Shown piece after piece: positions 55,701 through 59,962 of a DNA stretch of 64,000 nucleotides. Origin of the DNA: Marchantia polymorpha subsp. ruderalis (taxonomy: Eukaryota > Streptophyta > Marchantiopsida > Marchantiales > Marchantiaceae); NCBI GenBank assembly GCA_037833965.1, contig AP031356.1, forward strand, positions 9,818,501 through 9,882,500, written 5' to 3'. How positions within the stretch are numbered: the first letter of the stretch is position 1; every line of letters starts with the position of its first letter. Below the pieces are notes generated by a model. That model was not told the DNA's origin. It saw nothing but the letters and a program-made list of their open reading frames with translations, and did not search any database. The translations under genes and the position numbers were made by a program.

Positions 55701-56029
55701 CTATGGGATGGCTAACTCTCTTGAAAAACTGTGATGATCTCTCAAGCATCCTACAAAAATCATCTCTGCTACATACCGGATCCATAAGAAGATACTACTG
55801 TTGAAAACTGATGATGGTTGGTTCGAACTGTTTTTTTCAGTTTCAACGTTCACATACAGGAGTTCAAACCATGAATAATACATCCATCCGTCTGACGGGT
55901 GTAGAAGATGTGTGGTAATGTTAAATAACAGAACGCGCGGAGTTGTTATAGGGATACTGCCCAAGAAGTGAAATATAAAAGAAGTGAATTTTCCACGTTC
56001 ATCACAAATCCACTTACCTGAATTCAAAA

Positions 56030-57881
56030 TTAGTAAGTTAGATGTACTTGTGGAATACCATTAAGCAAAAAGAGACTTCCAAAATGTAATAACTCCATAT
56101 AGGATGCAAATGTTACAAACTTACACTTAGCCATACAAGATTTCCACTCTGTTTGGAAGTACTTCACGAATTGTGACTCAGAGAGCTGACAATTTTTGTA
56201 AAATAATAGAAGCTTCATCGCAGCAGACCTTTCCACATCAAATTCTTCTACATCAATAGTCAATGTGCTTCCAAAGCACAGGTCTTCTAATGCAGCATTC
56301 ATAATAGCTCTCTTTTCATGATCACTCACAACCTCAATCAATTTCTTTGTCCATGCTTTTCGAACATGATATATGCAAAGAAATACGGGATATGTGGAAA
56401 AACAATGTCTAGGGCAAGTCTCTTATTGTCAACACAATCCGTCATGAAGCAGGAGGGTATCCATCCAAGGATATAATGTTGGACCATCTTCTTCACTGCA
56501 GGTAACAATTCCACCAGATCTTGTGTTTCTTCTTTTTTGAGGAATCCAAAAATAGTAGTATGTCCGTGTTCATATTCGTCACACACCATAAGGGTGTACA
56601 GTGGATACTGCATCGCAAAAATAACGTATAAACGTATGAGTTTGCTGCTAGTAGTTGTCTACAAAGTACTCATCTTCATTGATACTAGGTTAAACTTGAT
56701 AAAAATAAATGATTTGTTATTTTTATGTATTGATAAGCTAGACGTGATCAAGGTATATAAAACAACATTTACAGCACACATTGAGAAGTTCAATAACGTC
56801 TTACTGGACATGTTAAAGCTCCAAACCGTCATTTTTTCAAGTGTCTTGCACATATTTTAAATTGTGAAGTAGAATATACATAATCATGGAAGCCTGATAA
56901 TAAAAACATCAGAATGGACAAGTAGAATATTACCTTATACTTCTGCGTGCCATGCGTTCCATCTATAGCAACACAAGCTCCACTTTCATGTTTTAGCAAC
57001 CATTCTAGGAGCAAGGGTATTGTAACAGCAAGCTTCAATGGTTTAAATGGATCACTTTTTGGTGCTTGATATAGAACAATTTGAGATGAATTCGCTTTCA
57101 TCCATAACATCTATGTGCCTTCTCCAAGTTTCTTTGCCGAGTTCCAATTTGATACTATACACATCAGCAGATGTGATATAATGATCTCTAATAGGGGTCC
57201 CTTGCACATAGCATAAGCTCTGATGATTTTCAAACAGTGCTTTTGCAGCACGCATAAGAATTTATGGAAGAGTTAAACCTCTTCTTAATTCGCATTCAAC
57301 CCATTCCCAGGCAAAGAAACGTAGAAAATATTAGACAACGTGCTTGCGTAGCGTCAAAGTTTTACAAACTGTAATAACAGCAAACTTATTGTACATATTA
57401 CAAATATGACAGGCGATTAACTGTGAACGATAAATAAATACATTAAAAATATTACAAATATGCCGTTACCTGCACTCGGAGGATAAATTGTGCGTCATCT
57501 GAGATGGCAAGCTAACACTATCCCGACACGCTGTGCCATGACAAGCTACACCTGCAGCATTTACATGTCTTTTATGCTTGTATAGCAACTTCGTGGTCCC
57601 TGGTGGAATGTGATCATTAGGCAACAGTTTAATGGCACTAAACCTGTATTGACAACCCTTGTGGTGAGAATCATGATCTAATCTATCCCTGCTACCTGGA
57701 TCAAATTTTGCCTTTGTTGATGGATCTTGAATAAAATTTGAGCTAAGCATACTCTTCTTGCCCATGTCTTGAGTACCATATTTGCAAGAGTACATTGAAT
57801 ACGATTCCCAACGGTGCCTAGCCCCTCCATCCTTGTTTGAGCAACGTGTCATAAATTCCGTCTTCGCATCACTATAACAAA
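56030..57881 (-). pseudogene. Broken Mutator-like (MULE) / FAR1-related transposase gene
   Basis: Minus-strand blocks in order: 57,881-57,472 with a Cys/His-rich region (MTRCSNKDGG, HHKGCQYRFSAIKLLP, LYKHKRHVNAAGVACHG); about 57,255-57,105; 57,110-56,930 ending with the first catalytic Asp motif (CVAIDGTHGTQKYK); 56,613-56,385 with YPLYTLMVCDEYEHGHTTIF and the second Asp region (CFMTDCVDN); and 56,385-56,030 with HVRKAWTKKLIEVVSDHEKR. This is the order of the MULE transposase domain. Two frameshifts are visible: near 57,100 (the frame changes between RRHIDVMD and KANSSQIVLYQAP) and near 56,385 (IPYFF to FLCIYHVRKAW). The 333-bp insertion at 57,882-58,214 splits the first visible exon. The exon's upstream end resumes at about 58,223-58,232 after a CTTTCAG acceptor and is in frame once the insert is ignored. 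The third catalytic residue was not located. It is non-functional. Confidence 0.82.
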
Positions 57882-58214
57882 GGGAATTGCTAGGCACACA
57901 CCCCCCCCCAAAAGAGTGATGACCGCCCGTGACCTTAATAGCACGCTCAAATCGACAGAAGTAGCCGTCTCACTCGCAGAGGCACCATATCACTAAAGAT
58001 GGAGCCACCGCCGCTGGATCGCGTCTACGCGTCGTTGGAAGAAGCTGAGACGGAGATTTTTGCCTTTGCTCACATGAAGGGGTACAGCTTGTTTGACGAA
58101 GCGCTGGCATGTTTCGACGCAGAAATGTTTAGCTTTTGGTGTTTTGACGCAGAAATGTGCTTTGTGGACGAATGGATGTATGCACAGGAGGGGGGTGTGT
58201 GCCTAGCAATTCCC
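57882..58214. mobile_element. Non-autonomous DNA transposon: perfect 25-bp TIRs, 8-bp target duplication
   Basis: The left end GGGAATTGCTAGGCACACAC plus CCCCC (57,882-57,906) is the exact reverse complement of the right end at 58,190-58,214. ATAACAAA occurs immediately outside both ends (57,874-57,881 and 58,215-58,222), a clear target-site duplication. Removing the element and one duplicate restores the host exon frame (AFCYSDAKTEF). An 8-bp duplication fits hAT or MULE elements. The right-hand C/G tract has six bases and the left about nine, so the tract has changed length since insertion. The element is too small to be autonomous. Confidence 0.93.
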
Positions 58215-58235
58215 ATAACAAAATGCCTCTCCTGA
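57999..58235 (+). CDS. Truncated FAR1/MULE-transposase N terminus carried by the 333-bp element
   Basis: An ATG opens 78 codons beginning MEPPPLDRVYASLEEAETEI, followed by FAFAHMKGYSL. This resembles the start of FAR1-type and MULE transposase DNA-binding domains, where a short EEAE helix is followed by a GY(S/A) strand. The rest of the zinc-binding domain and all catalytic parts are missing. A 30-bp tandem duplication (CFDAEMFSFW then CFDAEMC) follows, and the frame runs through the right terminal repeat into flanking DNA before stopping. It reads on the strand opposite to the interrupted host gene. It is best explained as the remnant of a longer parental transposase after internal deletion; I do not expect a functional product. 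Confidence 0.6.
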   Translation: MEPPPLDRVYASLEEAETEIFAFAHMKGYSLFDEALACFDAEMFSFWCFDAEMCFVDEWMYAQEGGVCLAIPITKCLS

Positions 58236-59962
58236 AAGAAAATCGTTAAGCCTCTAGCTTTTGATGTAGGCCGTCCCATTCGATCAATTCAAGATTAACG
58301 AATTGAAAGGGTCATCCCACGGTGGATCCTGCACAATCCATCTTGCCTCCATGCTGTCACCACACCTGCAAAAAGCACATGAAATGACAAGAAAAGGACA
58401 AGCACGAGCTCTGGCACGAGCTTCTCACAGCACTGACACTGGCACCCAAAAGTGATGTCAAAACATCGACGAGCTGGAGGACATAGATGTGACACTATTT
58501 TCAAAAATCCTAAACTTTGCCGCCTAAAATTTTGTCGCCACAATGTGTTATCATTGTTTGAATTACAAATATTACAGTTTGAATTTATTATGTATTCCAA
58601 CTAAGCTATCCCTCCTGAGGTTTAGTTTTAGTTTAACTAAAACAACGGCCTCTACAGTGACGGCCTCTACATGCCTCTACATGGTTGTTGAAATTTAATC
58701 CGGTTGACGGCATCTATATGATTGTCTGGAAGTCGGATCCGCCTACCCTCAAGTCCCCAAAACTGAGATAAAATCCGGCTTACTCGGGGCTCTCCGAATG
58801 GAGCATGAAGCAAGAAAGAAAGAGTAGAAAGAAATTGGGATCCCTAACACCTGGCAGTACGGCAATTTGTATAAGGGCCAAACCACACGACCGGCAGCGG
58901 CATCAAATCCTCGCTTGTTATTGGCACCCGAGCTTCCCCCTTTACCACACGGGAGGGAGTGGCAATTTGATATATCCTAGGTGGCAAAGAAATCGACTTC
59001 TCAAAACTACCGACTCGAAATCCGGTTTTTCCGGAATATATAGACTCCACGTGTACTTTCGCGCCTTCGTGGGTTACTCTTCCAAAGACTTCTCACCGCT
59101 GCGTTGCAATTAGTAGAGATATTTTTCCCTTTTCACTCCAAAGGTAGTGTGGTAGAGGTTATGGAATTTTAGTAGGCCAACTTAGGTCTACGAAAACGTG
59201 GTTTTCTTATAGCTGCCGGTAGTGTGGTAACGCCCTAAGTTTGTGCAACTACGCGAGTAGCTTTTGTACTAGTCAAGCTCGACATACCGTAGAACGGGAT
59301 GTCCAGCTGGCATTCTACATTAGTAACAAGTAGTGGAGACACTTTTATATAGCCTAGAATAACTTGGGAACCAAGATCGGCTCTTCTAACAGGTAAGCTC
59401 GACGCACAACCTCACACTCTACAATGATAATAGAAAGGAGTCGAAGTCTTTTATTTAACCTATAAGAACAAGTTCTTATAGGTACAAGAAACCTAATGAA
59501 TGCGGCCGGCCACACGCGCCATCCCTTACGAGACGTGCCGAACGTAACGGGCAGTTGTAGCGTAGTCGCGCGCTATGTTTCGAGCGCGGAGGCTTATTTG
59601 ATCGCTAAGTAATTAATCGGTAAATCATCGATAATTAATCGATAATTGCGAAAATCACATTAATCGGTAAATAACACCAAAATCCATGTGCTCGATCCTT
59701 AGATAATTTCCGTCTGTTGTTCTCGGTACGTTTCCAGGTCCCGGGACTGACCTTCTGATCTGCTCACTCTTCCTCAGATTTAGATGACGGTGAATTTCAA
59801 TCTAGTGGCAATTTAGTGGCAACAGTCAAGGTTCGAGGCTCGAGGATTCCATCTCATGCACCGCTTCGGCCACAGGAATTGTGTGATTCAAAATTCCAGG
59901 ATTGCTGCTCCGCTTCCCTCCTTCTTGCATTGGAGCCGTGAACTAAACCCCATAAACACCTT

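Follow-up and report, generated by a model that had tools for sequence, protein, structure and literature searches.

A 333-bp Mutator-like element in Marchantia polymorpha and a family of differently deleted copies with constrained total length

Mutator-like elements (MULEs) are described as producing target duplications of 8–10 bp, with 8 or 9 bp in the case of Muta1 (PMC5225508), and an 8-bp duplication is therefore ordinary for the group. Size optima and tandem terminal inverted repeats (TIRs) of MULEs are discussed in PMC3310237, and tomato Pack-MULE sizes peak at 1000–1200 bp (PMC3310237). The origin of the typical sizes of non-autonomous transposons is unsettled. A literature search on size restriction yielded one close precedent, though others may be in print: the mariner element Rpmar17 of Rhodnius prolixus, whose 227 copies have few common breakpoints and are in the majority 900–950 bp long (PMC4678618). 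A scatter of breakpoint against breakpoint shows a size limit in these copies, and the authors say that such a requirement for size is hard to understand (PMC4678618).

The window analysed here is a 64,000-nucleotide stretch of the genome of Marchantia polymorpha subsp. ruderalis (GCA_037833965.1, contig AP031356.1). It contains a 333-bp element that is almost certainly a non-autonomous member of a MULE family, formed by internal deletion of an element of ~2.3 kb. The features of this element and of the element that hosts it are given below, in window coordinates.

55980..58875, minus strand: host, a copy of a high-copy MULE-domain element with paralogues about 90% identical
57466..57881, minus strand: coding sequence of the host, flanking the insert on one side
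57874..57881, no strand: left target-site duplication ATAACAAA
57882..58214, plus strand (the sense of the transposase remnant): internally deleted MULE, 333 bp
57882..57906, plus strand: left TIR, 25 bp
57882..58091, plus strand: segment retained at the transposase-start end (element 1–210; matches the long relative L058 to element position 231, transposase strand)
57999..58235, plus strand: MEPPPL reading frame, running past the element into the flank
58088..58091, no strand: deletion junction with 4-bp microhomology
58088..58214, plus strand: segment retained at the opposite end (element 207–333; matches L058 from element position 2175)
58110..58158, no strand: two 19-bp subterminal repeats (58110–58128 and 58140–58158)
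58190..58214, minus strand: right TIR, 25 bp
58215..58222, no strand: right target-site duplication ATAACAAA

An earlier, sequence-only reading of this stretch had described a transposon with perfect 25-bp TIRs and direct repeats outside both ends. Both observations hold: the inverted arms (57882–57909 and 58187–58214) are 28 nt long and 96% identical, with no mismatch in the outer 25, and the direct repeats are the 8-bp copies of ATAACAAA that abut them. The two 19-bp subterminal repeats are possible transposase binding sites. The element is short and non-coding with two TIRs, as MITEs are, and Pfam finds no MULE domain in it; its ties to the MULEs are the 8-bp duplication, which lies within the 8–10 bp of the group, and L058, which has the same TIRs and encodes a transposase with a MULE domain. 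Recent movement, proposed from the clean footprint, survives only in a relative sense, in that the window copy is 2–3% divergent from its closest relatives (over 101–234 shared bp), against a family median of 4.7%.

Aligned to L058, the element consists of ~205 matched bases of one end and 127 of the other, which is the structure of L058 minus ~1.95 kb. Since the two ends are joined over microhomology, the MEPPPL frame represents transposase for ~31 residues only: residues 1 to ~31 derive from the transposase start, and the frame then crosses the deletion junction into 3′ subterminal DNA and finally the flank, so that a functional protein is unlikely. The proposal that this frame encodes a FAR1/MULE-like N terminus is thus correct for the first ~31 residues, which match a transposase start, but not for the remainder. 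Nor is the label FAR1-like borne out, as Pfam assigns the catalytic piece of the transposase to MULE and not to FAR1; no Pfam family matches the MEPPPL piece, and the FAR1 DNA-binding domain (PF03101) gives no match up to E 1 for this piece or the pieces that follow it.

The insertion lies inside a transposase-like gene, in line with the reading from the sequence. A MULE domain is present in the host (PF10551, E 2e-7), and a stop-free frame of 25–205 aa spans the insertion point in eight of nine fetched paralogues, the ninth (L081) being one that the script did not place. All nine, a set from which the window's own copy is excluded, lack the insert and are continuous across the site with a single copy of the target; these paralogous sites take the place of the second assembly against which the direct repeats were to be checked. 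Of 98 candidate matches to the host flank in the genome, 40 were scored, the nine paralogues among them; the host limits, 55980 and 58875, are the points at which matches of the fetched paralogues end, and a search for the host element's own ends did not find them.

A genome search for a longer element sharing both ends, which had been suggested as a check, returned a single long copy, L058:3001–5301, of 2301 bp, with the 21-bp TIR pattern at both ends at 0 mismatches. On its minus strand, a reading frame starts with MEPPPLDRVYASLEEAEMEI and has a MULE domain downstream (PF10551, E 1.1e-17). Three stop codons interrupt this frame, which also shifts phase twice, the first shift being possibly an intron; D-D-E-like positions were noted by eye. 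A 176-aa piece of the frame matches, besides itself, fragments in the short copies L050 and L056, all further matches being to other families at ≤42% identity; since no other full family copy is found with this piece, a search that gives a lower bound, no intact source of the window family was found in this assembly. The earlier view of the element as a deleted derivative of an autonomous one is therefore upheld as regards internal deletion of a ~2.3-kb MULE, but the sole long copy found is broken, and the suggestion that the autonomous element may still be active is left without support. The transposase may come from a related family acting in trans. In L058, L049, L054, L060, L067 and others, one or both TIRs are followed on their inner side by a second copy of the TIR core (TTGCTAGGCACACACC); the window copy has single ends. 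These doubled cores are comparable with the tandem-TIR MULEs of PMC3310237.

With the 21-bp TIR pattern, which is blind to element length, 66 matches were found in the genome at ≤3 mismatches, and none with the reversed control. They form 30 convergent pairs, 29 of them at 333–595 bp and one at 2301 bp. Two copies were added from DNA matches: L045, whose left end is damaged (homology gives 324 bp; a guessed end put it in the set at 334), and L070, whose right TIR has diverged to 4 mismatches. L048 (C4:4558538), with one TIR and no partner end, was excluded. The window element is accordingly one of 31 short copies that accompany a longer element, and not the single occurrence that would have spoken against its being an internally deleted derivative. 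Among these 32 copies, 8-bp duplications are perfect in 22 and have ≤1 mismatch in 26; when the left flank of one copy is paired with the right flank of another, only 3 of 992 pairs match perfectly. The 22 perfect duplications are 95% A+T, mostly with T first and A last, and the flanks of the 32 loci show no homology to one another.

When aligned to L058, every one of the 31 short copies has a different junction, and 0 of 465 pairs share one; even in the closest pair, L044 and L062, the junctions are near yet different. These are not, then, the homogeneous copies of one deleted progenitor that characterise a MITE. Pairwise divergence (median 4.7%, minimum 1.4%, 352 pairs) does not vary with the distance between breakpoints (rho 0.02, p 0.73, same pairs). 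Amplification of one short MITE, with length inherited and breakpoints that merely appear different, does hold for ten copies of a second family described below; for the window family it is refuted by copies that keep different parts of the 2.3-kb element, by the lack of any common junction and by divergence that does not track breakpoints, and the explanation has hardly any credibility left.

The lengths kept at the two ends span 18–536 bp and 23–471 bp, respectively, and are strongly anticorrelated (Spearman −0.92), so that the totals stay at 324–595 bp. The standard deviation of the summed kept lengths is 69 bp, compared with 177 bp in shuffled pairs, and none of 100,000 shuffles gave a value as small; shuffled ends would put 37% of copies below 324 bp and 13% above 600 bp. 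The position of the junction along the element is uniform (KS p 0.96). Copies pile up near the floor, 11 of the 31 being 324–352 bp long, and the excess over the minimum length is approximately exponential, with a mean of 66 bp (KS p 0.72, the fit parameters being taken from the same data). No helical phasing of the lengths was detected (p 0.89 at 10.5 bp; best of 8–60 bp, p 0.19), and no element between 595 and 2301 bp was found in the window family. Uniform random deletion of the 2301-bp element was considered and set aside, as only 4.6% of its products would fall at 324–600 bp.

Ten of the 31 junctions have no filler and 1–4 bp of microhomology, and the other 21 contain 1–47 bp of filler, which in four copies partly matches other parts of the element. 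Such junctions fit abortive gap repair in place, the printed explanation for internal deletions in other families (PMC5490172, PMC4678618), whereby full-length insertions were later excised and incomplete copying from the sister chromatid left a different deletion at each site. One deletion per site is also what this process predicts. Two independent repair tracts, however, would not yield anticorrelated lengths, and exponential tracts fitted to the tail would leave ~900 sub-floor copies for the 31 seen, of which none was found in the family; we consider repair in place unlikely.

Two further families in the same genome partly repeat the pattern. The second MULE family (L085; PF10551, E 1.9e-22) has 24 TIR pairs among 74 matches, with 4 and 5 for the reversed control, and the pair lengths are 193 bp, twenty of 333–466 bp, and then 2218, 2957 and 2980 bp. 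Ten of its 21 short copies align over nearly their whole length and represent one MITE, and their lengths cannot count as independent observations; the other eleven appear to comprise several structures, as judged by eye from alignments and without clustering. A 7–9-bp duplication with ≤1 mismatch flanks 19 of the 21. The 193-bp copy, L101, lies below the floor with a perfect 9-bp duplication and matches L102 over 144 bases; it may have shrunk after insertion. L085 (C2:12161119-12164075, 2957 bp) and L108 (C2:27289060-27292039, 2980 bp) have the ends GGGAATTGTTAAATACACTAC and long open frames. The third family (L110), found by protein similarity, has eight TIR pairs among 22 matches, of 317, 324, 326, 497, 594, 2414, 2416 and 2424 bp, each length including 4 bases per end that were added on the model of the single copy read. 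L110 itself (C3:23988085-23990492) has 219-bp inverted ends that are 96% alike and built of short internal repeats, with apparently an 8-bp duplication, TTACTTTA. A further candidate family, L109, was dropped when no matching TIRs were found. Across the three families, 56 of 57 short copies lie at 317–595 bp (L045 counted as 334), the exception being the 193-bp copy.

The sibling MULEs L072, L073 and L074 have ends three mismatches away from those of the window family and mutual DNA identities of 74–82%. L072 (1570 bp) and L074 (1599 bp) retain their two ends but are missing interior sequence found in L073, and mid-size deleted copies therefore exist in a related family; a sibling TIR search, whose 62 matches belong mostly to the window family, showed no short swarm of sibling elements.

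These mid-size siblings could be underway in a process of iterative shrinking, in which interior DNA is lost at each round of movement until a near-minimum length is reached and movement stops. Shrinking of this kind would account for the unique junctions, the 11 copies at 324–352 bp and the absence of common deletions, but the window family has no intermediate between 595 and 2301 bp, and the loss would also have to precede re-insertion, as sub-floor copies would otherwise be expected; its probability appears low. Still less probable is selection or search bias, whereby only short insertions survive or others were missed. The search would indeed miss any copy whose TIRs differ from the pattern by more than 3 mismatches, and selection could explain an upper limit; it explains no lower limit, however, and the length-blind pattern did recover pairs at 193 bp and at 2301–2980 bp.

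As repair tracts predict no anticorrelation and amplification predicts common junctions, we infer that shortening took place before or during insertion and that length decides success. In the sequence of events that we propose, the middle ~1.95 kb would have been lost from a ~2.3-kb MULE, giving a 333-bp non-autonomous element, which would then have been inserted into another MULE-domain element by transposase supplied in trans, with an 8-bp AT-rich duplication. The element would already have been short when inserted, and this order of deletion and insertion is the more probable one. Excision or insertion would be gated by end-to-end length, with a floor at about 320–335 bp and a steep fall above it in the window family; such a gate could arise if the intervening DNA has to be bent back for two ends with bound transposase to meet. 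The scheme as a whole, a deleted MULE inserted in trans with its total length gated, is the best explanation and a probable one; for the gate as the cause of the near-constant totals the balance tips only narrowly in favour, our estimate having been lowered slightly because L072 and L074 exist. Siblings of 1570 and 1599 bp, whose lengths fall where the size range is otherwise empty, count against the generality of the gate, and the 193-bp L101 with its perfect duplication counts against the floor, unless it shrank later. The data nevertheless suggest that length itself helps decide which copies jump, and the identity of the kept bases seems to have no effect beyond the terminal ~20–25 bp.

A variant that we regard as rather doubtful has the element shortened while it moves: once it is excised or copied out, the stretch between its paired ends would be broken and joined again ahead of integration, and a loop or circle below about 320–335 bp would be too short for rejoining or synapsis. 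A new deletion would then come with every jump, and product length would be set by DNA stiffness. For the preferred reading, in which length gates excision or insertion, a single genome supplies 31 deletions that arose independently, their junctions lying anywhere along the element while the total hardly varies, so that an effect of length can be separated from an effect of sequence, and the floor is a directly testable number. The pattern argues for deletions before insertion and against the usual picture of incomplete donor-site repair.

The window family resembles known MULEs and their non-autonomous derivatives in the MULE domain of its long copy L058, its TIRs and its 8-bp duplications, which are nothing new (PMC5225508), and differs from them in its short 25-bp TIRs, its swarm of single-copy deletions and its near-constant total length. 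The maize Ds elements Ds-del and Ds-l4 likewise derive from an autonomous element with its interior deleted, but belong to the hAT superfamily, and the interior of Ds-l4 is unrelated filler of about 1 kb. The IS256 family, as described for ISCth4, shares a MULE-related transposase and AT-rich 8-bp duplications, but is bacterial and moves by copy-out/paste-in through circles (PMC7780238). Closest is Rpmar17, with size-restricted copies that have different breakpoints, although it belongs to another superfamily and kingdom and its copies are rearranged, with a 3′ part replacing the 5′ part (PMC4678618). Rpmar17 has a size limit (PMC4678618), whereas the window family cuts off sharply on the short side and has a long relative in which both ends are present; within the literature searched, what is new is the size pattern in a MULE, its sharp lower edge and its partial repeat in two further families.
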